A DNA stretch of 64,000 nucleotides from Halorubrum sp. DM2 (GTDB taxonomy: Archaea > Halobacteriota > Halobacteria > Halobacteriales > Haloferacaceae), in contig NZ_LR594487.1 in the NCBI RefSeq assembly GCF_901686465.1, positions 1,113,650 through 1,177,649 of the forward strand, in the 5' to 3' direction. The notes below the pieces were generated by a model. It saw only the letters and a list, made by a program, of their open reading frames with translations, did no database searches and was not told the origin of the DNA. Position numbers and translations under genes: made by a program. Positions 32,852 to 49,812 of this stretch are shown here, in pieces; the stretch's first letter is position 1; each line of letters starts with the position of its first letter.

Positions 32852-33736
32852 ATGGAGACACGCCCGCTCGGCGAGACCGGTCACGACAGCACCGTCATGA
32901 CGTTCGGGACGATCGCGCTCAACTGGCTCAAACAGGAGGGTGCGAACCAGATGGTCGAGCACGTGCTGGAATACGGGGTCAACCACTTCGACGTGGCCCC
33001 GATGTACGGCGACGCGGAGCTGAAACTCGGGCCGAAACTCCGCCAGCACCGCGAGGAGATCTTCTTCGGCTACAAGACCGAGAAGCGGGACTACGAGGGC
33101 GCGTGGCAGCGCCTCGACGAGTCGCTCGATCGGCTGGGCGTCGATACGATCGACCTCTATCAGTTCCACGGACTGGAATACGCCGACGAACTCGACGAGA
33201 TCACGGGTGAGAACGGCGCGCTGAAAGCCTTCCGCGAGGCCAAAGAAGGGAGCCTGATGGACCACATCGGGCTGACGAGTCACAGCCGGCCGGAGCTCAT
33301 CGTCGACGCCATCGACCGCATCGACGATCTGGCGTCGCTGATGTTCCCGCTCAATCCCGTCGTCGCCGGAAAGTCGGACGGCGAGCACGACTACGAGGCG
33401 GTCCTCCAGCGAGCCAACGAGGAGAACATCGGTACGCTCGGGATCAAGGCCTTCGCCGCGGGGTCGTGGCCCGACACCGACGAACTGCCCGAGCGGGACC
33501 GCCCCTTCTGCAACTGGTATCGCCCGGTCTGTGCGCCCGACGAGATTCGCGAGCGCTTCGACTTCACCGCCTCGCAGGGCCTGACGAGCGTCGTCAGCGC
33601 CGGCGATCCGAAGCTCGTGACGATGATCTGCGAGGCCGCAAAGGAGTACGGCGGGATGGACGAGGCCGCCCAGCGCTCGCTGATCGAGGCCTCGCGCCAC
33701 GACGACAGCCCGGTCCCCGAACAACTCCACCACTGA
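32852..33736 (+). CDS. Aldo/keto reductase
   Basis: A 294-aa NAD(P)-dependent AKR. N-terminal METRPLGETGHDSTVMTFGT; catalytic tetrad visible as Asp in NHFDVAPMYGD, Tyr in the same block, Lys in FFGYKTEKRD and His in LYQFHGLEY. Some AKRs (D-threo-aldose 1-dehydrogenases) oxidise L-fucose at C1, so this could be the first enzyme of the pathway while the SDR at 26642 serves the later keto-acid step, or the reverse. It is followed 4 nt later by a methyltransferase on the same strand. Its membership in the sugar regulon is likely but not proven. Confidence 0.88.
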   Translation: METRPLGETGHDSTVMTFGTIALNWLKQEGANQMVEHVLEYGVNHFDVAPMYGDAELKLGPKLRQHREEIFFGYKTEKRDYEGAWQRLDESLDRLGVDTIDLYQFHGLEYADELDEITGENGALKAFREAKEGSLMDHIGLTSHSRPELIVDAIDRIDDLASLMFPLNPVVAGKSDGEHDYEAVLQRANEENIGTLGIKAFAAGSWPDTDELPERDRPFCNWYRPVCAPDEIRERFDFTASQGLTSVVSAGDPKLVTMICEAAKEYGGMDEAAQRSLIEASRHDDSPVPEQLHH

Positions 33737-35740: not shown

Positions 35741-36211
35741 ATGGCACGCGGATCGATCGAGGCGATCTTCGTCGCCCCGGATTCGGGCGAGCCGATGGAG
35801 GTAGTCGAGAGCGTCGAAGCCGTCGCCGGCCGCGGCCTCCGCGGTGACCGCTACTTTCGCGAGCAAGGGCTGTACGACTGCCGCGAGGAACTCCCCGAAG
35901 GGACCGACGTATCGCTGATCGAGCGCGAGGCGCTCGACGCCATCGAACGGGACCACGAGGTCGACCTGCCGGCACGGCTGACGCGACGCAACGTCGTCAC
36001 CAGCGACGTGGCGCTCAACCACCTCGTCGACCGGACGTTCCGGATCGGCGATGTCGAACTGGTCGGCGAACGCCTCTGTGAACCGTGCAGCTACATGGAA
36101 TCGCTCGCAGAGACAGAGGGTGCTTCCGAGGCACTCACGCACCGCGGCGGGCTGAACGCGAACGTGATCGAATTGGGCACGATCGCAATCGGGGACACCG
36201 TCGAGTTCTGA
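35741..36211 (+). CDS. MOSC domain protein
   Basis: A 156-aa MOSC (molybdenum cofactor sulfurase C-terminal) domain protein. Shows GSIEAIFVAPDSGEPM at the start, VAGRGLRGDRYF, VSLIEREALDAI, RLTRRNVVTSDVALNHLVDR, and the conserved Cys region GERLCEPCSYMES followed by HRGGLNANVIELGTIAIGD. Such proteins bind sulfur or the molybdenum cofactor through the Cys. It stands alone, with 36 nt to the frameshifted gene upstream, and is convergent with the chimeric gene at 36256. Confidence 0.87.
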   Translation: MARGSIEAIFVAPDSGEPMEVVESVEAVAGRGLRGDRYFREQGLYDCREELPEGTDVSLIEREALDAIERDHEVDLPARLTRRNVVTSDVALNHLVDRTFRIGDVELVGERLCEPCSYMESLAETEGASEALTHRGGLNANVIELGTIAIGDTVEF

Positions 36212-36255
36212 GCGCCCGCTCGTATTCTGGAGATCTTCGCTACGTTCAGATCTCC

Positions 36256-37524
36256 CTACTCGAACCCGAAGACCTCAACTGGTTCGTAGGGCTCTTCGAG
36301 ATACGCCACGTCGGATTCAGAAAGCGACACGTCCAGCGCCTCGACGGCGTCCTCCAAGTGTTCGATACTGGAGGTGCCGACGATCGGCGTATCGACGTGG
36401 TCGTTCTGAAACTGCCACGCCAGCGCGATCTGGGCCATCGTCACGCCCTTGTCGGCGGCGGCTTCCTGCACGCGATCGTTGATCCCCTGGCTGCCCGGTC
36501 CCTCGTGGTAGGGGGTGCCGTAGTCGATCTCGTGCTCGCCACGGGCCGTCTCGGTGAACTCCTCGTGGGGACGGGTCAGGTAGCCCGCAGCCAGGGGCGA
36601 CCACGGGAGCACACCGATGTTCTCGCGGTCGCAGATGGGGTAGATCTCGCGCTCCTCTTCGCGGTACGTGAGGTGGTTGAGGTTCTTCATCGTCTCGAAG
36701 CGCGCGAGGTTCTCGCGGTCGCTGACGTACAGGGCGCGCTGGAACTGGTGGGCGTACATCGAGGAGGCCCCGATGTGGCGGACCTTGCCCCGGCGGACTG
36801 CATCGTCCAGCGCTCGCAGGGTCGTCTCGATGGGCGTGTCGTAGTCCCAGCGGTGGATCTGGTACAGGTCGACGGTGTCCATCCCCAGCCGATCCAGCGA
36901 GTGATCGAGTTCCTGCTCGATGGTCTTCCGGGAGAGGCCCTCGGCGTTGCGGTGGTCGTTCGCGCCCGGCCAGCGCACCTTCGTGGCGACGACCTGCTCG
37001 TCACGGTCGTACTCCGCCAGCACGTCCCCGGGGATGTCCTCGCTCTCCCCCGAGGAGTAGACGTTGGCCGTGTCGAAGAAGTTGATCCCGAGGTCGATGG
37101 CTCGCTCGACCAGTTCGATCACCTCGCTGACGAACCGGTCCGAGCCGACCCGTCTCGGGAACACGAGCAGGTCGATCTCCTGGAGGAGGTAGGGCGCGAG
37201 TCCCTGCTCGATGACGCGATTGACCAGTGTCTCCACGTCCTCGGCGTGGGTGGTCCCGATCAGCCCGTGACCGGTGTTAAGTGTCTCGGCAAACGTCTCG
37301 AAGCTCTCGGACGTGTTGACCTCGGCGATGACCTCAACGTCGGGGTTGAGGTAATTACACTCGGTCATCAGATCGGCCATCGTCACTCGCCGGTGCTCGC
37401 GCTCGTACTCTCGGGTCGTCAGCGAGACGCCCGTTTCGTGTGGAATGAACACCTCTCGGGATCCCTCGTCGATCGAGATCGGCCGGTCGCGATACGGGAT
37501 AAAGGGCATGTGGGCGTTCCACAT
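36256..37524 (-). CDS. Chimeric ORF: secretion-ATPase fragment fused to truncated aldo/keto reductase
   Basis: A 422-aa frame made of two unrelated parts. Residues 1 to about 130 (MPFIPYRDRPISIDEGSREV, VTMADLMTECNYLNPDVEVI, NTGHGLIGTTHAEDVETLVN, EIDLLVFPRRVG) are an internal segment of a haloarchaeal type II/IV secretion (PilB/VirB11-like) ATPase lacking Walker A. From about residue 140 (ERAIDLGINFFDTANVYSSG) it is an aldo/keto reductase with tetrad Asp, Tyr, Lys (VVATKVRW) and His (LYQIHRWD), but without the first 35-40 residues (strand beta-1). The junction, near 37104-37134, lies in a short stretch where both families have similar V-E-L sequence. It looks like a deletion-fusion. Whether it is expressed and folds is unknown; the barrel start is missing, so activity is doubtful. 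Confidence 0.8.
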   Translation of the reverse strand: MWNAHMPFIPYRDRPISIDEGSREVFIPHETGVSLTTREYEREHRRVTMADLMTECNYLNPDVEVIAEVNTSESFETFAETLNTGHGLIGTTHAEDVETLVNRVIEQGLAPYLLQEIDLLVFPRRVGSDRFVSEVIELVERAIDLGINFFDTANVYSSGESEDIPGDVLAEYDRDEQVVATKVRWPGANDHRNAEGLSRKTIEQELDHSLDRLGMDTVDLYQIHRWDYDTPIETTLRALDDAVRRGKVRHIGASSMYAHQFQRALYVSDRENLARFETMKNLNHLTYREEEREIYPICDRENIGVLPWSPLAAGYLTRPHEEFTETARGEHEIDYGTPYHEGPGSQGINDRVQEAAADKGVTMAQIALAWQFQNDHVDTPIVGTSSIEHLEDAVEALDVSLSESDVAYLEEPYEPVEVFGFE

Positions 37525-37857
37525 TCAGAAACTACTAGTAGTCGGACCGAACGTGAGAATCGCCAGACTCCAACCGACTGGACGAAGAAAGCAATTTAAT
37601 TGTGACAGTTTCTTCGCGCCATGCTGAATACAGGGCGCGATCGGTTATTGCCCGACAAGTAGATTGCTCTCATACACGAAAAACTGGCATCATCCAATAT
37701 CTTCGGGTTAGTTGATTTGAGATATTATGGGGCAGGTTCTCGGATGCTTAACCAGATCCGATTACAAGAGCGAGTATGAAGTCATCAATTCAAAATCAAC
37801 GTTATCGGTTGTTGAACTGGATTAACATAGACGATGATCCCGATAAGTTTAGAGAAA
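37525..37857. other. AT-rich stretch without supportable gene
   Basis: Short frames exist on both strands (for example 37776-38036 plus) but lack acidic bias and known motifs. The upstream region of the chimeric ORF contains no further secretion-ATPase sequence, so the 5' part of that gene is lost. Confidence 0.45.
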
Positions 37858-38379
37858 TCACTCAACCTCACGGATTTCTTCTGATAACCATCTGTGAACG
37901 TTTGAGTTCGAAGATTTCGAGCGCAATTGATGTAATTTATCGCGCCGATTCCAGAATAGGTCATTCCCCCACCCTCCACCTCGTTCTATGGCGTTCAAAT
38001 TCTCTACTACATCATCAAGATCCCCATAACGAATGAGCATTCCATGAGCTAAATTCCACCATCCGTCGTGTTCCATGGGGGGTATACAACGTGCTAATTG
38101 CGGGGCCCGATCTTCTGGATTCACATCAACCCATTCCCATAAGGTAGATTCAGGAACTAACAGTATAGCAGGATCCTTTACATCCACTCCGGTTCCCGCT
38201 AACCAAGCTTCTAGTCGAACCCGGCTGGAGTCGGTGTCGAAGCCACCCACAACAAGTTCCCAAGCCTTCTCTGGATTTTCTTCCAATAAAGGTCTTAGGA
38301 CGATTCCAAGAATATCTCGAATTCCGGTGATTCCCCCTCTTGTTCCCAATGAACCAATGATCAGTACCTCACAAAGCAT
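37858..38379 (-). CDS. Hypothetical protein, probably a C-terminal fragment
   Basis: A 173-aa frame beginning MLCEVLIIGSLGTRGGITGI. It has Trp- and Leu-rich helical segments: LLEENPEKAWELVVGGFDTD, STLWEWVDVNPEDRAPQLAR and WGNDLFWNRRDKLHQL. The pattern suggests alpha-helical repeats, as in large helical-repeat proteins. The abrupt start next to ISH3 debris, and its lower GC than the neighbours, suggest it is the end of a longer imported gene cut by transposition. No family recognised. Confidence 0.5.
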   Translation of the reverse strand: MLCEVLIIGSLGTRGGITGIRDILGIVLRPLLEENPEKAWELVVGGFDTDSSRVRLEAWLAGTGVDVKDPAILLVPESTLWEWVDVNPEDRAPQLARCIPPMEHDGWWNLAHGMLIRYGDLDDVVENLNAIERGGGWGNDLFWNRRDKLHQLRSKSSNSNVHRWLSEEIREVE

Positions 38380-38546
38380 CCTCGGCTAGCTGTTTCTGCG
38401 GCCTGAGCTCTGTGTCGAAGCGGTTGTCCTGACGGTCTCGACGAGAGAATTACGGACGGATCGACGGGGAGCTGTCGCTGTCGGCGGCGATCAGCCGCCG
38501 ACGCGACAGCATCGCCACTCACTCCGCTGGCTTGCTCGGTCGGTGG

Positions 38547-39824
38547 TTAGCGGTGGAATCGGTTGTCAGGTGGCCGGTTCGCGGGGACGGTCCGACGCAC
38601 CGCGAGGGCCGTCCACGCAGCTCGTCGAATCATATTAATGAACTCCTTGTACGGCCACCACCAGAGGCGACGCCCGCCTCAGCGGGGCGTCGCCACATAC
38701 TCGTAGTGAAGGTACCGCCAGACATTCTGTAAGAGTAGACTCACCACGACGTACAGCAGCCGTACCGTTGGATCTCGTGTTGTGGTTGTCGCTATCGCTT
38801 GCTCAAACAACCGATAGCTCGACTCGATACCGAACCGCTTGCTGTAGTGGTATCGAGCGTCGCGTGGTGAGTCGATGAACGGCGCGTCAGCGGCGTAGCC
38901 GTGACACGCCACACCGTTCTCGTCATACTTCCCGTTCAGGTACGTACAGTCGATGTAGACGGGAAATCGACGGTCCAGCTGTGACCGTCGAGTTTCCCTG
39001 TCAGATCGTGCTGAACGACACGGCTCCATCCTTTCGAGAGCTCTTGCTGAATCGTCTTTCCCCACCGGATGATCGGGATCACGTACGCGTAGTCGTGCGC
39101 TTGAAGCAGCGTGAGGCACCTGCTGTCGTAGAATCCGCGATCGAGGTAGACGGCCGTGACCTTGGTGTCAAGGCCGTCAAGGACACCGAGAAACTCAGCG
39201 AGGACACTGCTGGCGGTATCGCCGTCTTCGAGACGGCGTACCGCCAGCGTGTAGCGTTTGTTCTTCACACGCGCGTAGAGTGTCGCGTAGGCATGGAACG
39301 CGGTGGTTCCGCGCTTTGCGACAGAGTGGAAGAGTCCATTCGTACCGTCTTCGTCACCGTAGTAGGGTCGCAGGTGGAGGTCTGCGCAGACCTCCACCTG
39401 CTCGGGGAGCAGTTCATCGAGGTTCTTCCGCAGGAGCGTGTTAGCGACTCGTTCGAGCCGATCCGGTTCGAACTTCGTCCGACGCTCTTATGTAGAAACG
39501 CGGAAAGGGGTCGTTTGCTTTTAACCAGCTCTGAATCAGCACCCCTGACACCGTCAAATCAGTGGGAAGTGGCCGAGTCGAATTCTGTCAGATCGTCTTT
39601 CCACAGCTTTGCATAAGAGCGTCGTCCGAAGATGGTAGAGGATCGTGTTCGCAGCGGGTGTGTTCTCGCTCGAAGCACAGAGCGTAGAGACAGAGGTCCT
39701 CAGCAGTGATCTCAGCGTTATTGGCTAAGGGGAGCGGAACTTCCTCGTCAAGGCGGTTGACGAGAAAGCTAAGAAGCTGGTTCTCGCAAATCTCACCGTC
39801 TGCTTGCTGCTGTTTGCTAGGCAC
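38547..39824 (-). pseudogene. ISH3-family transposase pseudogene
   Basis: Pieces in order on the minus strand: N-terminus MPSKQQQADGEICENQLLSF and LVNRLDEEVPLPLANNAEIT; then a gap or rearrangement near 39590; ERVANTLLRKNLDELLPEQV; catalytic-domain pieces RPYYGDEDGTNGLFHSVAKR and VYLDRGFYDSRCLTLLQAHD. A one-base T loss near 38970 moves to the frame PVYIDCTYLNGKYDENGV and YHYSKRFGIESSYRLFEQ. TGA at 38679-38681 interrupts before the normal C-terminus GGRRLWWWPYKEFINMIRRA ending at 38547. At least three lesions, so inactive. Confidence 0.85.
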
Positions 39825-39867
39825 ATTCGCAGCAAGCAGACGTTCTAACTAAGCGGCTTTGTGAAGT

Positions 39868-40201
39868 ACTGAGATTGAGTTTCTCACCGAGACCAGCGAG
39901 GAATGTAGCCGCTAGATCGGTGCCATGTCGTCCAAACAGCTGGACATCGAGAATCAATTTTGTTTCGATGTCTATTGCAGCACATAGCCAAGACATCTCA
40001 CCATTAATTTTGATAGCAATTTCGTCAACAGCGACCCTTGGCGGCTTCACCGTCGGCGGGTCGGTAATACTCTCATCAACTCGAGTTACCCACTGAAAGA
40101 TCGCTTAATGAGACCGTTCAACACGGAAAAGACAAAGAAACTCTTGTGCTTCTCCGAGAGAACAACTGCTCACTTCTCAAACTGGCTTAAGTTGACAGTG
40201 C
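39868..40201 (-). pseudogene. IS6-family remnant
   Basis: Contains RVAVDEIAIKINGEMSWLCA, AIDIETKLILDVQLFGRHGT and AATFLAGLGEKL, matching the transposase at 10557 but with the N-terminal part partly deleted and everything after the first catalytic third missing. One end, ending AGTTGACAGTGC at 40201, is still recognisable as the left IS6 end. It directly abuts the ISH3 remnant and the RidA gene. Confidence 0.82.
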
Positions 40202-40681: not shown

Positions 40682-41341
40682 TCACTGGAACCGGAGCTCT
40701 CCGAACGCCGCCGGACGGTGGAAATCTGGTTCAGACGCCTCGACTGGATTCCAGGCCGCGTAGAGCGTCTCGGGAAGCTTCCGGATCCGATAGAAGTTCC
40801 CACGCCAACGCGTTCCCAGGGACGGGTCGACCGGGACGCCGGCGAGGTCAGACAACGTGTTGAACGGGAGTTCCACAGCGATCCACCAGCCCTCGTCGTC
40901 CGATCGCGGCCGCTTCGTTGGCCCGCTGATCGAGCCGCGGACCCGAACGTTGGCAGCGGCATCCGGTGTCACAAGCGTTCGGTTCGTTCGGCCCATTCCG
41001 TACCCGAGGTAGAACGTTCCAACACAGTTCACCTCAAAGTTAAAGTATGCATTACAGACATCTGGACGCGGGCTTGCGAAGAATTCGACGCAGCTGTCCT
41101 CCCACACCGACCCGTTCAGCGTCGTGGCCTCTGCGTGGCTGTGTTCATCGTTGACCGTGTAGTGCAGGTATAGCGTTTCGTCGTCGTACAGCACACGAAC
41201 GGTCGTACGCGGTCGGGAATCCGGTTGGGTCCAGAGAAATCGGTCGATCGAGACGCGATCCACACGCTCCCACGGGGTCCCTGTCGTCTCACCAACTAGC
41301 GGGACCGAGTCGTCAACCCGCTGGATCCCCGTCGTCCTCAT
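40682..41341 (-). CDS. CBM9-like carbohydrate-binding protein
   Basis: A 219-aa single-domain protein of the carbohydrate-binding family 9-like group. Characteristic phrases: TTVRVLYDDETLYLHYTVND, VWEDSCVEFFASPRPD, YFNFEVNCVGTFYLGYG, DDEGWWIAVELPF and a final WNPVEASEPDFHRPAAFGEL. No signal peptide is visible. The first codon overlaps the SDR stop by 4 nt. CBM9-like proteins are found with sugar-processing genes but their role as free domains is unclear. It supports a carbohydrate-derived substrate for this operon. Confidence 0.82.
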   Translation of the reverse strand: MRTTGIQRVDDSVPLVGETTGTPWERVDRVSIDRFLWTQPDSRPRTTVRVLYDDETLYLHYTVNDEHSHAEATTLNGSVWEDSCVEFFASPRPDVCNAYFNFEVNCVGTFYLGYGMGRTNRTLVTPDAAANVRVRGSISGPTKRPRSDDEGWWIAVELPFNTLSDLAGVPVDPSLGTRWRGNFYRIRKLPETLYAAWNPVEASEPDFHRPAAFGELRFQ

Positions 41342-42180
41342 CGATCGGTCGGCGGTTCGTCTGCCTGGTAGATCTCGTTCTCGAACGACTGCGGCAAGCC
41401 AGCCGTCAGACCGCCATCGACGACGAGGTTCTCACCGGTGATGAACCCAGAGCGCTCACTGGCCAGGAACAGTGCGGTGTCCGCAACCTCGCGCGGGCGC
41501 CCGAACCTCCCGAGAGGATACTGGTCGATCCACCGGTCGCGGGCACTCGTCTCCCCAGACCGCTCCTCCGTGCTCTCCATCTCGTCCCGGCGGTTCTGGG
41601 TCTCGATGGTCCCCGCTGAGAGGACGTTTGATCGGATCCCGTACTGGCCGTAATGCGTTGCGATGTTCCTAGACAGCGCGAGGAGCCCGCTCTTGGCCTC
41701 CGAGTAGCCCGTTAGCCCGATCCCGAAGAGCCCGTTCACCGAGCCGACGTGGACCATTGAGCCGCCATCACCAGCGATCATCGCGGGCATGACCTCGCGG
41801 GCAAGCAGGTAAGGCGCCTTGAGGTTCAACTCAAGCATCCACTCGAACTCCTCCTCGCTACACCGGTGCAGTAGATCCGCTGACTCTACTGAGCCGCCCG
41901 CGTTGTTGACGAGAACGCGGATGTCACCGAACTCCTCAATCGTTGTGTCCACGAGGTCGCGGACGGCTTCGGAATCGGTTACATCACACTCCACTGGAAT
42001 CACCTGGCCATCGTGAGCGGCATCAAGCTGGTCCGCGACGGCCGCGACATCCTCGTACGTGCGTGAACAGATTGCCACGTCGCCGCCGGCTTCGGCGAAC
42101 GCCGTTGCGATCTCCTTTCCGATACCGCGTGATGCGCCAGTCACGATCGCCGGACGGTCCGTTAGGGACAACTCGGCCAT
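41338..42180 (-). CDS. Short-chain dehydrogenase/reductase (second operon)
   Basis: A 280-aa classical SDR: TGASRGIGKEIATAF (about 14-28), LVNNAGGSVE, catalytic Ser in MVHVGSVNGLFG and Tyr-Lys in YSEAKSGLLAL (about 158-162), and the C-terminal substrate loop PLGRFGRPREVADTALFLAS with ITGENLVVDGG. Resembles gluconate 5-dehydrogenase or 3-oxoacyl reductase-like SDRs, hence a sugar acid or keto sugar substrate is plausible. Gap of 100 nt to the dehydratase upstream; 4-nt overlap with the CBM9-like gene downstream. Confidence 0.9.
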   Translation of the reverse strand: MAELSLTDRPAIVTGASRGIGKEIATAFAEAGGDVAICSRTYEDVAAVADQLDAAHDGQVIPVECDVTDSEAVRDLVDTTIEEFGDIRVLVNNAGGSVESADLLHRCSEEEFEWMLELNLKAPYLLAREVMPAMIAGDGGSMVHVGSVNGLFGIGLTGYSEAKSGLLALSRNIATHYGQYGIRSNVLSAGTIETQNRRDEMESTEERSGETSARDRWIDQYPLGRFGRPREVADTALFLASERSGFITGENLVVDGGLTAGLPQSFENEIYQADEPPTDR

Positions 42181-42280
42181 GTCAAATAAGTCTACTGTAG
42201 GAGTGATAAAGAAGGTTCCGGCGTAGACAGCGACGGGAGGGTGATGTCGCGACCGGACGCCGAACGTGACATCCGCGCCG

Positions 42281-43447
42281 CTACACTTCGTACTGGTCGA
42301 TCATCTCGCGGTCGATCTCGATCCCGAGTCCGGGCTCGTCGGGGACCCGCATGTGCCCCTCCGTGATATCGAAGGGGTCAGCAATAATGTCATCCTGCCA
42401 CGCGTAGTAGGTTGTGTCCGGCGGAAGCGAGAAACCCGGGATCCCGTGAACAGACTGGAGGATGGCCGCAGTCCGAATCCCCAGATCGAACGCGCAGTGG
42501 TGAGTGAACGGAACACCGGCATCCTCAACGATGGAGGCCTGCTGTCGGAGTCCGCTGATCCCGCCTGCAGGCGTGAGGTCAAGCACGGCGACGTCCATCG
42601 CGCCGGCCTCGGCAAGCGAGCGTAGATTGTTCGGGATGTAGGTGTCCTCATTCGGCGCGATCGGTTGCCGGAGGCGCTTCCTGAGCGTAGCCAGCGAGTT
42701 GTGTGCGTTGACCCGGATCGGCTGCTCCATATACTGGAGGTAGATCCCCGAATCCTCGAGCGCTGCACCGACGCGGACGGCCTGATCGAGCGACCAACCC
42801 TGATTCGGGTCGAGCCTGAACTCCAGCGCTCCGTCGACCTCGTCGTGCATGGCTTCGATCCGCGCTACGTCTTGTTGCCAGTCACGGCCGGCCTTAGTCT
42901 TGAGCACTGAGAAGCCGGCGTCGAGCGCTTCCTGGGCTTTAGCACGGGACTCAGCAGGCGAAAGGATGCCCAAACAGAACGCGAACTCGATGTCGCGGTC
43001 AGGCCCGAATTCACGGTCAGCCGCGTCCGCGTTCATCGCGGTGGTCTGTTCCGGCGCCGTCGAGCCGCCAAGAAGTTCGTAGACGGGCTTTCCGAGAGCT
43101 TTCCCCGCGATGTCCCAGCACGCGGTCTCGACAGCAGCAAAGAACAGTTCGACGTTCGTGTACTCGATGAACACCTGCCGGCGGAGGCGCTCGACTTCGA
43201 AAGGCGACTGGCCCTCGATCAGGGGGCCGATCCCGTCCTCGATGACGGACTCCGTGGCGTCCGCCGTCAGGAACGTCCGCATCTCACCCCAGCCGGAGAT
43301 CCCCTCGTCGGTCTCCACTTCGACGATAACGCGCTCCATCGAGTCAACCTGCCCGTGATTCGTCACGTACGGCCCGATCCCGAGCGGTTCATCGAGGTCG
43401 ACAAGCGGTACGTCTACAGTCGTAGCTGTCACAGCCGTGATTTCCAT
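42281..43447 (-). CDS. Enolase-superfamily dehydratase/racemase (second operon)
   Basis: A 388-aa enzyme. Capping domain about 1-130 (ERVIVEVETDEGISGWGEMR, AVETACWDIAGKALGKPVYE). Barrel catalytic elements: VLKTKAG (KxK, about 192), metal ligands in RLDPNQGW (Asp), YMEQPI (Glu) and APNEDTY (Glu/Asp), plus DLTPAGGISG and the His region FTHHCAFDLGI. It is distinct from the dehydratase at 17477 (different strand-2 base motif). Likely dehydrates or epimerises an acid sugar or related acid. It is 43 nt downstream of the TIM-barrel-like gene in the same operon. Substrate unknown. Confidence 0.9.
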   Translation of the reverse strand: MEITAVTATTVDVPLVDLDEPLGIGPYVTNHGQVDSMERVIVEVETDEGISGWGEMRTFLTADATESVIEDGIGPLIEGQSPFEVERLRRQVFIEYTNVELFFAAVETACWDIAGKALGKPVYELLGGSTAPEQTTAMNADAADREFGPDRDIEFAFCLGILSPAESRAKAQEALDAGFSVLKTKAGRDWQQDVARIEAMHDEVDGALEFRLDPNQGWSLDQAVRVGAALEDSGIYLQYMEQPIRVNAHNSLATLRKRLRQPIAPNEDTYIPNNLRSLAEAGAMDVAVLDLTPAGGISGLRQQASIVEDAGVPFTHHCAFDLGIRTAAILQSVHGIPGFSLPPDTTYYAWQDDIIADPFDITEGHMRVPDEPGLGIEIDREMIDQYEV

Positions 43448-43489
43448 ATTATCTTGTGTACTGCCCCCGTAAAAGAAGCTACCGTCTCC

Positions 43490-44629
43490 TCACTGGATCG
43501 TCGACGCGATCCAGTCGAGGGAGCGATTAGGAAGCAACCCGTAGTTGTAGAAGGAGACGCGGGGGATGCCCTCCTCTCGGAGCCCGTCGACGATCCGTGA
43601 GAGCGTATTCGGGTCGTCGATCGCGGGGTAGCCGGGAAGCAGCCCGACATGAATTGGTACGTCGATATCGAGACTGTCAACTACCCGGTATGATCGGAGA
43701 ACATCTTCGCGGGACGATTCGTACGTCGGGAGACAAAAGTAGTCGACATGATCGGAGAGCTGAGTAAGGTCGGCGCCGGCCATCCACTCGCGGCCGGGCT
43801 CCGGCATGCCGACGTAGTAGCCGAGTTCCGTCTCCCCTGCGGCCGACGCCAGGTCAGCGTAAAGGTCCGCAAGCGTGCGCTGGCGTACGTCCACGTAGTC
43901 GGCGACTGCTGGAGACTGCCGGAGCCACTGTTCCGGAACGATGTCGCTCGGGAGACGCCCAGCGATGATGTCGTCAAGCGCTTTGACGGACATCTGCCGC
44001 ACCCGGTCGACATCGACTCCTCGGTCCATGGCGATATTGCGGCAGTGATCACAGAAGCAGAGGCCAAACAGGAACTCACCGAGCGTCCCGAGTTCCGCGT
44101 GGATCTTCTGGTGGTGCCAACCGAATCCCGTCCCGTAAAAGTAGTCGAACGTCTCCAACTCAATCCGATTGAACGTCTCGCGAGATGCGAGGTCGGTAAC
44201 GAGTGACCGCAGATACTGCTGGGTGTCGGGGTGTGACGGACAGAGTCCGAACACCAGGTCGTCGCCGTACGGCGATGTAAGTGTCAGCTCGGGATGGGCC
44301 ATACCGAGTCGAGAGTTGTGACAGCCGATCGTCCACGATGTCAGCTTGAGGTCGTTAGTCGCAGTCGCGATCGAGTCAACCCAGTCTTCGTCCATCCCTT
44401 CGTACGGTCGCGGTCGAATCTCACCGTACTCGCCGCCCGGGTAGAAGTACGAACTTGCGTGCGCGAAGTGGGTCTTCCGCACTGGGTTGTGCGGAGAGAA
44501 CGTCTGGACAGAGTGGTAGTTCGTCGCCAGGTTCATTTCACCGATCCCGATCTCTCGAAGGCGCGACGAGACCGTGTCAATCCCCTCGTCGCGAACGTCC
44601 CACGGATACGCCCAGGTTGCAAACTCCAT
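43490..44629 (-). CDS. Uncharacterised TIM-barrel-like protein with CFCxHC motif (paralogue of 25412-26587)
   Basis: A 379-aa homologue of the protein at 25412-26587. Shared blocks: FATWAYPWDVRDEG, NYHSVQTFSPHNPVRKTHFA, SPYGDDLVFGLCPSHPDTQQ, ELETFDYFYGTGFGWHHQ, LGEFLFGLCFCDHCRNIA and VSFYNYGLLPNRSLDWI. The ATG at 44629 is chosen since the paralogue starts at the equivalent place. The Glu-rich ELETFDY block and the CxCxxC cluster are the best candidates for active-site or metal residues. Here it is encoded between the second permease (64-nt gap) and the dehydratase. I do not recognise the family. Confidence 0.78.
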   Translation of the reverse strand: MEFATWAYPWDVRDEGIDTVSSRLREIGIGEMNLATNYHSVQTFSPHNPVRKTHFAHASSYFYPGGEYGEIRPRPYEGMDEDWVDSIATATNDLKLTSWTIGCHNSRLGMAHPELTLTSPYGDDLVFGLCPSHPDTQQYLRSLVTDLASRETFNRIELETFDYFYGTGFGWHHQKIHAELGTLGEFLFGLCFCDHCRNIAMDRGVDVDRVRQMSVKALDDIIAGRLPSDIVPEQWLRQSPAVADYVDVRQRTLADLYADLASAAGETELGYYVGMPEPGREWMAGADLTQLSDHVDYFCLPTYESSREDVLRSYRVVDSLDIDVPIHVGLLPGYPAIDDPNTLSRIVDGLREEGIPRVSFYNYGLLPNRSLDWIASTIQ

Positions 44630-44693
44630 ACCCACACAGATGTGGCGGGGCAATTAAAACTCCGGTTGCGCTGAAACCGCCCGTGAGAAGCGG

Positions 44694-45539
44694 TTACTCC
44701 TTCACCGCGCCGGCTGTCATTCCTGCGACGATGTACTCCTCGAGGAACGCGAAGAGGATCAACAGCGGAATGATCCCAACGACCGAGGCCGTCAGCATCA
44801 TCCGCCAGTCCGTCTGGAGCGCGCCTACCATCGAGAAGACACCCCTGGGAACGTTGTACTTCCCGGCGTCCGTGAGGAATGTCAGGACGAACAGCAGGCG
44901 GTTCCAAGCGTACAGGAACGTGTAGGTGACACTCGCGACGAGCGCCGGCTTGGTCAGGGGCAAGACGATCTTTGTGAGGATCTGCCACTGTTCGGCGCCG
45001 TCGATCCGTGCTGACTCCTCCAGCGAAACCGGGATCGTCTTGAAGTAGCCGTACAACATCCAGACGTTGAACGGGAGCGTGAACGCGGCCGCCGGGATGA
45101 TGACAGCGAGGTAGCTATTGAACAGTCCGACGGTTGTGATGACGTCGAAGAGCCCGACGATGAGCACAACGGGGGCGAACATTTGTACAACGAGCACGGA
45201 CAGCAGGAATGTTCGCTTCCCGATAAAATCGTTCCGCGCACACGAGTAGGCGGCCGGGATAGCTAACGCGAGCGTTAGGACGACAGTGCCAATAGAGATC
45301 AGGAAGCTGTTGGCGATCCATAGGAGGATGTCCGTCTGGCTCCACACCTGGAGGTACGCCTCAACCGTGGGATCCTCCGGCACGAGCGTGGCCGGACTCG
45401 AGAAGATCTCTGACTCCGTCTTAAGCGTGCTCGAGAACATCGCGTAGAACGGGAACATCATCACACCCAGCAGCGCAATGAGCACACCGTAGAGGCGGAC
45501 TTTCCGGAGCCACGTCCGCTGTTGACCCGCCATCGTCAT
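44694..45539 (-). CDS. Carbohydrate ABC transporter permease (MalG type, second operon)
   Basis: A 281-aa permease. First membrane helix about 12-33 (LYGVLIALLGVMMFPFYAMF), coupling loop EESARIDGAEQWQILTKIVL followed by PLTKPALVA, and the end YIVAGMTAGAVKE typical of MalG-type subunits. ATG 45539 overlaps the stop of the upstream permease by 4 nt. A second ATG two codons later is an alternative start. It works with the 45536 permease, the 46483 binding protein and the 48715 ATPase. Confidence 0.93.
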   Translation of the reverse strand: MTMAGQQRTWLRKVRLYGVLIALLGVMMFPFYAMFSSTLKTESEIFSSPATLVPEDPTVEAYLQVWSQTDILLWIANSFLISIGTVVLTLALAIPAAYSCARNDFIGKRTFLLSVLVVQMFAPVVLIVGLFDVITTVGLFNSYLAVIIPAAAFTLPFNVWMLYGYFKTIPVSLEESARIDGAEQWQILTKIVLPLTKPALVASVTYTFLYAWNRLLFVLTFLTDAGKYNVPRGVFSMVGALQTDWRMMLTASVVGIIPLLILFAFLEEYIVAGMTAGAVKE

Positions 45540-46486
45540 AGTTCCTCACCTCCCCGTGTGTAGACACGCAGATACACGACTGCGAACACTAAGAGAAAGA
45601 GGAATCCAATGACGCTGAACGCTGCGCCACGGCCGAGGTTCCCGTTTTCTAGACCTACCTTGTAGATCCATATCACGAGCGTCGATGTGGTGTTGATCGG
45701 ACCCCCGCGGGTCATCGTCCAGATCGTGTCGAAGCTGACGAACGTCCAGATAGTCGATAACAGCGTCGCAATCAGGATGACGGACTTCAGCTGGGGTAGG
45801 GTGATGTACCGGAACTGGTGCCACCGCTCGGCACCGTCGATCGCTGCCGCCTCGTACAACTCCTGAGGGATGGACTGGAGTCCTGCCAGGAAGATAATCG
45901 CCATGAACGGCGTACCGATCCAGATGTCGGCCACCACAACTCCGAGCCACGCAATATCTGGGTTCCCAAGGATACCGATAGCCTGATCGGTGATTCCGAG
46001 CTTCAGCAGGACGGCGTTGATGTAGCCGTACTGCGGGTGCTCGATCCAGCGGAACACGACCGCGGAGATGGCGTAAGGGATCCCCCAAGGGATCAGGAAC
46101 GCTGTCCGGAAGAACTTCCGACCCTTGATGTCGCCCTTCAGGTGAACGGCGATCAGCAGGCCGAGCAACGTCTTCCCTGCCACGCCGATGACAACCCAGC
46201 GGCCGGTCTGCCACAGCAGCTGGTAGAACATGTCGCTGCCGAGTATCTCAACGTAGTGTTGGAGCCCGACGTACGTCTCGATCGACGAGTCGGCGGGCGA
46301 TTCGTACAGCGACAGCCGGAACGTCTCAATGATCGGATAGCCGACGACGCTCAACAGGAAGATTGCGGCGGGGGCGATCAGCAGGTACGCGCGGCTATTG
46401 TGACGGAGGTAGTCCATTCCCTGCTCAAGGCGTGAATCGGCCTGCGTCTCGGCATACTCTTCTGCAGTGCCCATTTGTGTAGTCAC
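45536..46486 (-). CDS. Carbohydrate ABC transporter permease (MalF type, second operon)
   Basis: A 316-aa membrane subunit. N-terminal cytoplasmic part with QADSRLEQGMDYLRHNSR, then helices from about residue 35. The coupling loop YEAAAIDGAERWHQFRYITL followed by PQLKSVILIATLL lies near 225. It ends with FAVVYLRVYTRGGEEL. Overlaps of 4 nt on both sides with the binding protein and the second permease show tight coupling. Confidence 0.93.
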   Translation of the reverse strand: MTTQMGTAEEYAETQADSRLEQGMDYLRHNSRAYLLIAPAAIFLLSVVGYPIIETFRLSLYESPADSSIETYVGLQHYVEILGSDMFYQLLWQTGRWVVIGVAGKTLLGLLIAVHLKGDIKGRKFFRTAFLIPWGIPYAISAVVFRWIEHPQYGYINAVLLKLGITDQAIGILGNPDIAWLGVVVADIWIGTPFMAIIFLAGLQSIPQELYEAAAIDGAERWHQFRYITLPQLKSVILIATLLSTIWTFVSFDTIWTMTRGGPINTTSTLVIWIYKVGLENGNLGRGAAFSVIGFLFLLVFAVVYLRVYTRGGEEL

Positions 46487-47829
46487 TCCATCGCGTCTTC
46501 GAGATCGGACTGCGCGTCGTTGAGAGCCTTCTGCGGGGATTTCTGCCCACCGAGGGCCTCTTGGATCGCTTGAACCATGCGGTTGTTGAACTCATTGAAG
46601 TTCGAGAGCTTCGGTCGCGCACGAGCGTACTGGCCGGCCTCGATATAGGGTGCCCAGTTCGACGATTCTTGGAAGTGGTCGCGCTCACCGACCTCCTCAA
46701 TCGTCGGCATGAACCCCTTGTTGGTCGCGTATTCGAAGTGACGGTCGGGCTCGAGGTAAAACCTCAGGAAATCTTCCGCCAGATCCTTGACCTCGGTCTG
46801 GGCGAAGATCGACACGGCGTCAATCGTGTTCAAGCTGTAGCGACCCTCGGGGCCGGCAGGCACCTGAACGATGCCGTAGTCGAAGTCGACTTCGTCGTTG
46901 TCCTTCGCGGCGTCAATGTTGATCCCCGTATAAACGTGGGCAATAACCATCCCGAGCTCGCCAGACTCGAACAGCTGACGGATATCCTGTCGAGTCGACG
47001 AGAGCGGCGAGGGCTGGGTGATCCCGTACTCTTGGTGCAGGTCGGAGTAGAGAGTGAGCGCCTCAACGCCCTCGCTAGAGTTCACGACAGGGAGCCCCTC
47101 GTCGTCGATCAGGTCCGCGCCGTGTGACCAGTGGTAGTGGTAGTACTGCGAACCCGTCTCGATGGCGGCCGCACCGGCGAGTCCCAGCGCGGGCGTGTCC
47201 GTCTCGTCTCGGATCTGTTCGCCGGCCGCGACCATATCATCCCATGTATCGAGTTGAGGGTTCTCGGGATCAAGTCCAGCGGCCTCAAACACATCCTTGT
47301 TGTAGTAGAGACACTTGTTGGATGCGGCCCATGGGGCCCCGTAGTAAGACCCCTGGTACTTGCAGCCGTCCGCCATTCCTTGGTAGAAACGATCGCCGAA
47401 CTCGCCCTCCATGAGCTCATCGATAGGCTCGAGTTCATTTTTGCCGACAAGTTGGGGGATCCACCGCGCTGGCCAGCGAGCGACATCGGGCGCCTCGCCG
47501 CCATCGACGCGGTTGTTCACCGTCTGCTGGGCGTTGTCCCAGGTGACACTTGTGAACTCGAGGGTGACATCGTGTTCCTCCTCGAACTGCTCATTGTTTT
47601 CCTCAAAGAACTCTTGAATGTTGTCCCCAACCCCCATCGTCAGGAACTGGATCGTCCGGCCATCGTCGCCGTCACCGCTTCCATCGCCATCGGAACCGTC
47701 ACCGTTGTCTGAGTCACTGTCGTCTCCCAGACAACCTGCAAACGCGAAGATGCCACCACCTCCCATCGTCTTGAGAACTTTCCGCCGGTCAATGCTTCCG
47801 TCGGTGTGCGCAATTTTGTCTATCGACAT
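46483..47829 (-). CDS. Carbohydrate ABC transporter substrate-binding lipoprotein (second operon)
   Basis: A 448-aa extracellular binding protein. Signal SIDRRKVLKTMGGGGIFAFA followed by Gly-Cys gives a twin-Arg pattern and lipobox FAGC, then an Asp/Gly/Ser linker. Mature domain features: EFFEENNEQFEEEHDVTLEF, ARWPARWIPQLVGKNELEPI, YYGAPWAASNKCLYYNKDVF (ligand-cleft region of family 1 proteins) and RQDIRQLFESGELGMV. The start of the permease overlaps its stop by 4 nt. It lies 71 nt after the creatininase-family gene. Ligand unknown, probably a sugar or sugar derivative. Confidence 0.93.
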   Translation of the reverse strand: MSIDKIAHTDGSIDRRKVLKTMGGGGIFAFAGCLGDDSDSDNGDGSDGDGSGDGDDGRTIQFLTMGVGDNIQEFFEENNEQFEEEHDVTLEFTSVTWDNAQQTVNNRVDGGEAPDVARWPARWIPQLVGKNELEPIDELMEGEFGDRFYQGMADGCKYQGSYYGAPWAASNKCLYYNKDVFEAAGLDPENPQLDTWDDMVAAGEQIRDETDTPALGLAGAAAIETGSQYYHYHWSHGADLIDDEGLPVVNSSEGVEALTLYSDLHQEYGITQPSPLSSTRQDIRQLFESGELGMVIAHVYTGINIDAAKDNDEVDFDYGIVQVPAGPEGRYSLNTIDAVSIFAQTEVKDLAEDFLRFYLEPDRHFEYATNKGFMPTIEEVGERDHFQESSNWAPYIEAGQYARARPKLSNFNEFNNRMVQAIQEALGGQKSPQKALNDAQSDLEDAME

Positions 47830-47900
47830 CTGTGCTATCCATTAATTTGCGGTTATTAATAATTTTTGGTGGTACAACGTGTCGGCAACTCCGGCCTACA

Positions 47901-48704
47901 TCATCGGTTGTACTCGTGGATCGCCGTGAATATGGCGCCCAACTCGTCGGTGACGACATCGTAGATTTGTTCGCCCTTCGCCGCACTGGCGAGTTCCGGG
48001 GCGCCGATATCGCCCGTGTTGGAGTACTCAGCGAAGGAACGGTAGATAGAGAGCTGTCCTCCTTTGAGGAGATCTCCCCCGCCCCAGTCGTAGTGCTCGT
48101 TCCAGCGCGTCCCTTTCTCAATCATTGACTCCACCACAAGATCCGGTCGGAGGTACAGCATGAGTGATGTCTCGTACTCGCCCCCGTGAGCCATACCGCC
48201 TGGCTTACTATCACGGAGGTCCGCGATCTCCGGTGCCGCGAGAGTAAAGTAGGTCGTCCCGAGAACCTCCGCGTCTGTGGTCTTCCCGAGCGTGCTTACC
48301 GTCGCATCGATGAGGGAGGCGTTCCCGCCGTGACCGTTCACGAAGCAGACTGCATCGAAACCGTTCTCTAATCCTGTCCGGCCGATGTCCTCAAGCACAC
48401 GTCTGAGATGCTCGAACTCCAGCGAGAGCGTTCCGCCGAACGAGAGGTGGTGCGGCGAGAAGCCGCACCAGACCGCTGGCGTGACAAGTACCGGTACGTC
48501 GTCCCGCAGTGACTCTGCTCCGCCGTGGACCATCGCATCCACGAGGAGCGTGTCGGTGATGACTGGGAGGTGATGGCCGTGCTGTTCCACACTCCCGACG
48601 GGGACGACAAGGACGGACCCGTCGCTCTGAGCGACATCTCGGATCGCTGCGTACGGTTTTCCAGCCCATTCCCACTCGTTCGTACCGATCGTCTCGTAGA
48701 TCAT
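47901..48704 (-). CDS. Creatininase-family amidohydrolase
   Basis: A 267-aa metal-dependent hydrolase. Landmarks of the creatininase fold: VLVVPVGSVEQHGHHLPVIT followed by DTLLVDAM (metal Glu, His and Asp), GFSPHHLSFGGTLSLEFEHL, FVNGHGGNASLIDATV and MAHGGEYETSLMLYLRPDLV. Family members open cyclic amides (creatinine) or related ring bonds and include enzymes acting on cyclitol-derived ketones. The ATG at 48704 is used; the longer frame to 49037 lies inside the ATPase gene. It is encoded between the ATPase (10-nt gap) and the binding protein, so it belongs to the operon. In the first locus the M81 gene may play the equivalent role. Confidence 0.88.
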   Translation of the reverse strand: MIYETIGTNEWEWAGKPYAAIRDVAQSDGSVLVVPVGSVEQHGHHLPVITDTLLVDAMVHGGAESLRDDVPVLVTPAVWCGFSPHHLSFGGTLSLEFEHLRRVLEDIGRTGLENGFDAVCFVNGHGGNASLIDATVSTLGKTTDAEVLGTTYFTLAAPEIADLRDSKPGGMAHGGEYETSLMLYLRPDLVVESMIEKGTRWNEHYDWGGGDLLKGGQLSIYRSFAEYSNTGDIGAPELASAAKGEQIYDVVTDELGAIFTAIHEYNR

Positions 48705-48714
48705 TGAGTCGTCT

Positions 48715-49812
48715 TCACGCCATTCGTTCCGCGGTCGCCTCAACCGGAACTCGGTCGCCCGACTCGTCGAAGAAATGAATATCCGCGACATCGAAATCGA
48801 GCGTGACCAGTTCGCCGGGATCGGGTCGGAACTCGTTGTCGACCCGGGCGATGATTTCCTCGTCTCCATCCGTGGGAGGTTTGAAGTAGAGGTAGTTATC
48901 TGCCCCCATGGGTTCGACGACATCCACAGTGGCCGAGAGCCGGCCGGTACCGTCGATCGTATACAGGTCCTCGGGGCGGACGCCAAGCGTGTAGCGTCCC
49001 GGCGGTAGCGACACGTCGAGGTCGGTCTCGAAGCCATCTCCTTGGACGGCTATCCCGTCAGAAGTCGACTCGACATCGACCTCAAAGAAGTTCATGCTGG
49101 GAGAGCCGATGAACCCGGCAACAAACCGGTTGTTCGGTTCGCTGTAACAGATTTCAGGCTCCGCGATCTGCTGGAGCTCCCCATGATTGAGGATGGCGAT
49201 CCGGTCACCCATCGTTATCGCCTCCGTCTGGTCGTGCGTAACGTAGATCGTTGAGACCCCAAGCTCCTCGTGTAGGCGCTGGAGTTCCGTCCGCATCTGT
49301 GAGCGGAGCTTCGCGTCGAGGTTGGAGAGCGGCTCATCCATCAGGAAGACGTCCGGATCGCGGACAATCGAGCGACCGAGAGCGACTCGCTGTTGCTGTC
49401 CGCCCGACAGCTGCTTCGGGTACTGGTCCAGCAGTTCCGGGATTTCGAGGAGTTCGGCCGCATCCTCGACTCGCTCATTGATCTCGGCGTCCTCAAACTC
49501 ACCCGAGAGCCGCAGGCCGAATGACATGTTCTCCCGCACGGTCATGTGTGGATAGAGCGCGTAGTTCTGGAACACCATCGCTATGTTCCGGTCCTGTGGC
49601 CGCACATCGTTGACAACCTTCGAGCCGATCCGAATTTCGCCGTTGGAAATCGTCTCTAGGCCCGCGACCATGCGGAGGGTCGTCGATTTCCCACAGCCGG
49701 ACGGGCCGACCACAACAAGGAACTCTCCGTCGCGAACCGTTATGTCAATTCCCTCAACTGCGAGTACGTCGTCATACATTTTCGTTACGTCTGACAGCTG
49801 TACTTGGCTCAT
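48715..49812 (-). CDS. Carbohydrate ABC transporter ATP-binding protein (MalK/UgpC type, second operon)
   Basis: A 365-aa ATPase: Walker A GPSGCGKSTTLRM (about 37-49), Q-loop MVFQNYALYPHMTVREN, signature LSGGQQQRVALGRSIVRDP, Walker B VFLMDEPLSNLDAKLR, switch VTHDQTEAITMGDR and a C-terminal TOBE domain (YTLGVRPEDLYTIDG). It is the first gene of the ten-gene operon and follows a promoter region shared with the divergent IclR gene. Close in sequence to the 28774 ATPase, but each locus has its own. Confidence 0.94.
   Translation of the reverse strand: MSQVQLSDVTKMYDDVLAVEGIDITVRDGEFLVVVGPSGCGKSTTLRMVAGLETISNGEIRIGSKVVNDVRPQDRNIAMVFQNYALYPHMTVRENMSFGLRLSGEFEDAEINERVEDAAELLEIPELLDQYPKQLSGGQQQRVALGRSIVRDPDVFLMDEPLSNLDAKLRSQMRTELQRLHEELGVSTIYVTHDQTEAITMGDRIAILNHGELQQIAEPEICYSEPNNRFVAGFIGSPSMNFFEVDVESTSDGIAVQGDGFETDLDVSLPPGRYTLGVRPEDLYTIDGTGRLSATVDVVEPMGADNYLYFKPPTDGDEEIIARVDNEFRPDPGELVTLDFDVADIHFFDESGDRVPVEATAERMA

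Follow-up and report, generated by a model that had tools for sequence, protein, structure and literature searches.

Archaeal tyrosine recombinases can integrate mobile elements into coding genes, and the targets described for them include HMG-CoA reductase, a heavy-metal efflux gene and an AsnC-type regulator (PMC8371274). A PilB-type ATPase is not among the coding-gene targets named in section 19 of that review. We analysed a 64,000-nucleotide stretch of the chromosome of Halorubrum sp. DM2 (hereafter the window), in which one open reading frame (ORF) joins a piece of such an ATPase to an aldo/keto reductase (AKR). The elements that we found in the ATPase genes of other haloarchaea resemble those described in the review, with insertion by an integrase, short direct core repeats and the integrase at one end (PMC8371274), whereas the window differs from the elements covered there in keeping one end only, joined to another gene. 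On the ATPase side, fusion residues 3 to about 136 resemble PilB/GspE/VirB11-type archaeal secretion ATPases (T2SSE, PF00437) and are 87–91% identical to proteins of genus g50 (Haloarculaceae, family f4), but the N-terminal domain, the Walker A motif and the C-terminal part of these ATPases are lacking. On the AKR side, the fusion shares 286 residues, including the catalytic tetrad, with a family whose solved structures include DepB (8hwn) and AKRtyl (8jwl), and is 36–37% identical to DepB; the first 37 residues of these enzymes, by contrast, are replaced by ATPase sequence.

The fusion ORF lies on the reverse strand at 36256–37524 and comprises 422 codons, open throughout. Searching Pfam with hmmscan placed T2SSE on residues 8–116 (profile positions 165–267 of 370; E = 3.8e-6) and Aldo_ket_red (PF00248) on residues 133–411, from profile position 19 onwards (E = 6.9e-68). 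With the frame open and both domains present, the in-frame fusion proposed by an earlier, sequence-only reading of this DNA is real. Base-by-base comparison with the parents revealed ATPase likeness from 37519 to 37118 and AKR likeness from 37105 to the stop codon, 37118 being the last ATPase-only base and 37105 the first AKR-only base. The 12 bp between them (37106–37117, reverse strand; CGAACTGGTCGA) form a stretch common to both parents and compatible with either, with 37111 as the sole exception. That reading had placed the junction near 37104–37134, where the two parents look alike; this range contains the 12-bp stretch, which locates the junction more sharply.

The ATPase piece (37118–37519, reverse strand) is, as had been proposed, internal and without Walker A. 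Its similarity starts in NAHMPFIP, a sequence that intact relatives carry immediately after GPTGVGKTTLM, so that the piece begins directly after GKTTLM; at its other end it stops about 135 residues short of the C-terminus of intact relatives. The AKR part (36256–37105, reverse strand) likewise bore out the description of an enzyme with all four catalytic residues and no first strand. It retains D151, Y156, K182 and H224, which correspond to D52, Y57, K83 and H125 in 41 intact relatives, where these columns do not vary. These relatives open with MEYTTLGSTGMEVSKICLGCMSFG...ELIERAID, and the fusion has lost their first 37 residues, leaving an incomplete (beta/alpha)8 barrel. In a model of the intact relative from genome G218, used as a control, the lost residues make up the N-terminal hairpin and strand 1 and begin helix 1 (strands at 3–5, 12–14 and 17–19; mean pLDDT of 92.0). 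The window contains a second AKR-family gene at 32852–33733.

Judged by its sequence, the ATPase piece does not break at random at its 5' end but at an integrase attachment site that recurs in other genomes, a point that the sequence-only reading had missed. An alignment of genome G089 to the window continued beyond the ATPase piece into CTACTAGTAG, and the layout of the site is CTACTAGTAG-N12-GAACGC, with the ATPase piece of the window starting there. The attR-like site (37514–37541, reverse strand) is composed of the arm CTACTAGTAGTTTCTGAATGTG (37520–37541) and the core GAACGC (37514–37519). ATPase similarity stops at 37519, the very base where elements interrupt the gene in G003 and G089. 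We searched 293 genomes for CTACTAGTAG-N12-GAACGC-N-CACATG, allowing up to three mismatches, and found the pattern in six. The same GAACGC site past Walker A is occupied in different haloarchaeal families, with the same layout in four genomes: G003 and G089 show both ends of the element, and G236 and G411 show one end or a decayed site.

In G003, a Halorubrum, a 7.5-kb element (L163, 3973–11504) divides the ATPase gene into residues 42–490 and 480–743. At its left end CTCAACGC abuts TAGAAGTCAGCATCTACTAGTAG, and at its right end CTACTAGTATATCCTGACGATT abuts CAACGC. In G089 (L197/L159), an element of about 8.1 kb occupies the same site, with ATPase residues 3–489 on one side and 487–754 on the other, and its left arm is identical to that of the G003 element. 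Both attL (AACGC followed by TAGAAGTCAGCATCTACTAGTAG) and attR (CTACTAGTAGATGTTGACGATT followed by GAACGC) are visible at these integrated elements, and the joined ends would make inverted arms of 22–23 bp flanking the 6-bp core GAACGC. Beside attL, each carries an integrase matching PF00589 (Phage_integrase); the two are 91% identical despite belonging to two haloarchaeal families, and they also match PHROG integrase and, weakly, XerA/XerD. Common to the two elements is also a protein that matches a head-maturation protease. In G236 (L178) this site is occupied by a decayed element whose arm reads CTACTAGTAGTTACTGTATATG, and in G411 (L247) CTACTAGTAGTTATTGAATATG stands immediately before the 3' part of the ATPase. 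The arm in the window most closely resembles those of G411 and G236, which represent a second arm type. A tblastn search on the question of IntSNJ2, in a phage collection that may not include SNJ2, gave no match, and no viral contig matched the attachment pattern. The right end of an IS200/IS605 (TnpB) element was considered as a source of CTACTAGTAG on account of a hairpin and was rejected, as G003 and G089 show integrases and 6-bp core repeats with no adjoining tnpB. Rfam searches of 36000–40000 and of the G089 boundary returned nothing relevant, and literature searches with the string CTACTAGTAG returned unrelated papers only.

Upstream of the site, the window carries mobile-element DNA (37520–38360), in which the GC profile falls from about 0.63 to 0.44–0.48. 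The part at 37804–38361 matches DNA of G140, G010 and G034 at 83% identity, and the G140 copy lies on the Halorubrum trapanicum plasmid pCBA1232-02. A 173-aa ORF (37858–38379, reverse strand) is what remains of the C-terminal end of a 1233-aa hypothetical protein of this plasmid, with 82% amino-acid identity to plasmid proteins over residues 27–173; it had no match in Pfam, PHROG or the viral contigs. An insertion sequence of about 1.5 kb (38361–39872) breaks into this plasmid-derived gene at 38361; it has 17-bp terminal inverted repeats (38361–38377 and 39856–39872), and an end of it recurs many times across the genus. The transposase frames of the insertion sequence are broken and were recognized by eye from translated ORFs, with no Pfam match. 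Farther along lie a CBM9 gene (40685–41341) and, at 41341–49037, a series of genes with SDR, mandelate racemase, sugar-binding and creatininase domains. The CBM9 gene was present in just one other genome among 44 relatives, which gives this region the look of an accessory island.

The genome retains intact genes of both types elsewhere. The native ATPase gene, far from the window, is only 62% identical to the ATPase piece, and the native AKR gene, at C1:1419867, is only 66% identical to the AKR part, for which the best matches, 84–87% identical in amino acids, are in Haloarculaceae such as Halosimplex pelagicum, Haloarcula pellucida and Halorhabdus amylolytica. Because the Haloarculaceae proteins are so much closer than the native copies on both sides, neither parent gene is native to this Halorubrum, and both are nearest to Haloarculaceae. 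G218, a member of g50, carries a close relative of each parent, on separate contigs. Both parts lie at a similar synonymous distance, about 0.6, from their nearest sampled relatives, so both parents may have come from one unsampled donor lineage. As the sequence-only reading had observed, no further part of either parent adjoins the fusion; the search that it suggested for the missing parts revealed no closer copy anywhere in the genome, and the remainder of either parent is absent from the chromosome, the N-terminal half of the ATPase included. Nor did the source genome contain a matching attL with an integrase, the best integrase being 31% identical and containing a stop. We looked for the fusion in three overlapping sets of about 410 genomes in all (59 relatives, 392 genomes from the order and 52 from the genus) and found it in no other haloarchaeal genome.

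We consider it likely that the fusion ORF is a chimeric scar of mobile DNA, acquired by lateral transfer. In a Haloarculaceae-type donor, a tyrosine-integrase element would have recombined its attP into the GAACGC that immediately follows the Walker A codons in a gene for a PilB/GspE-type ATPase, so that attR (CTACTAGTAG-N12-GAACGC) and the 3' portion of that gene came to lie at the right edge of the element. This right flank would have undergone illegitimate recombination with an AKR gene from the same host family inside the 12-bp shared stretch, with loss of the ATPase C-terminus and of the first 37 codons of the AKR and with the frame kept by chance. The product would have reached the Halorubrum chromosome by lateral transfer, and there the element would have decayed, so that part only of it remains, cut by the insertion sequence. 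Integration of this kind is seen in relatives and, for this lineage, is suggested by the one site; the junction points to illegitimate recombination with the AKR gene, and the identities point to transfer into Halorubrum. The proposed order is the simplest that accounts for both breakpoints, and recombination and transfer may be swapped. Since the ATG at 37524 sits in the arm of the element, the start codon itself would come from mobile DNA. The fusion would show the edge of an element turned into a new ORF, with both breakpoints placed within a dozen bases.

Of the two origins offered by the sequence-only reading, ectopic recombination agrees with a crossover in the 12-bp shared stretch and with a fusion that occurs nowhere else, and a single long deletion is unlikely because the G218 relatives of the two parents sit on different contigs and are not adjacent. 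A plain deletion between neighbouring native ATPase and AKR genes would require no more than one crossover in a short shared stretch, but the native copies lie elsewhere, intact and too dissimilar, and at its 5' end the ATPase piece breaks off at a defined point, an integrase site, all of which makes such a deletion very improbable. An artefact of assembly, in which unrelated pieces were stitched at the 12-bp stretch or at a copy of the insertion sequence, is quite improbable as well. The crossover does fall inside a shared stretch, and the region does have an insertion sequence whose end is repeated in the genus, but the genome is a single 3.45-Mb contig, 99.94% complete, and 12 bp are too short to fool long reads. 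A join of two loci of the source genome is disfavoured because the chromosome nowhere contains the remainder of either parent, and contaminant DNA would need to provide both parts together with the attachment site.

It is also conceivable, but in our estimation unlikely, that the fusion is a working new protein, in which a strand-loop-helix of the ATPase replaces AKR strand 1 and selection maintains the chimera as an active reductase. The open frame and the complete tetrad are consistent with this, and the ATPase piece terminates in IDLLVFPRRVGSDRFVSEVI, which might form a strand and a helix. Compared with relatives, dN/dS was low for both halves (about 0.04–0.2), with no excess of amino-acid changes on the branch of the window. 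Low dN/dS on both open parts fits a young fusion and also a conserved one; it mostly reflects the time before the fusion, and the frame would be retained by chance in one case of three, so neither proves function. The conserved AKR start and the P-loop are both missing, the fusion is confined to one genome, and that genome has an intact AKR of the same family. Because the P-loop and AKR barrel strand 1 are both absent, the protein, if made, would be expected to have neither ATPase nor AKR activity. Use of the fusion as an enzyme is unlikely, and as a gene it is probably a curiosity. An AlphaFold model of the fusion (mean pLDDT of 64.7) and a Foldseek search from it were dropped as folding evidence owing to a faulty alignment, in which the N-terminal parts of the AKR rows were misaligned to ATPase columns and residues 141–240 had no rows.

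Beyond the scar proposed for the window, the ATPase gene was split at several positions in about ten of the genomes searched, apparently by several integrase families. G022 (L244, 1920–5539) and G025 (L245, 1743–6470) are split at a second site with the 12-bp repeat TACCTCAACCCC; their integrase matches PF00589 far more strongly (E values of 1e-33 to 1e-35) and has no close similarity to that of G003. In G019 (L246, 1723–11525), the split lies near CACGGGC and is accompanied by a relative of the G003 integrase. The ATPase halves of G009 (L252/L253) are on different contigs, one of them adjoining an integrase, and in G132 (L224) and G181 (L227) related integrases adjoin ATPase pieces broken near residues 528–537. 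In several haloarchaeal families, elements carrying an integrase split one and the same pilus-ATPase gene, at no fewer than three positions overall. A literature search, mostly without subscription papers, found no reports of integration in pilus ATPase genes. We tentatively suggest that the haloarchaeal PilB-type ATPase gene may serve several integrase families as a common landing gene, every family using a site of its own within a conserved stretch, and that landing might switch off the pilus, reversibly if the element is excised; the fusion in the window would then be a by-product. The pilus, on this suggestion, would be a likely virus receptor or adhesion organ. If confirmed, this would be a testable case of mobile elements turning off a surface organ that may admit viruses.

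The attachment pattern is not confined to ATPase sites, as G164, G125 and G148 carry the arm in other surroundings. On a 99.9-kb contig of G164, three CTACTAGTAG arms lie within 8 kb (L180, 9130, 16975 and 17019), one of them followed by GAACGCCCAC and away from any ATPase gene; these arms are possibly attP sites. The only other CTACTAGTAG of the source genome, at C1:592911 (L157, 1501–1510) and 18 bases past a run of N, is possibly another integration site.
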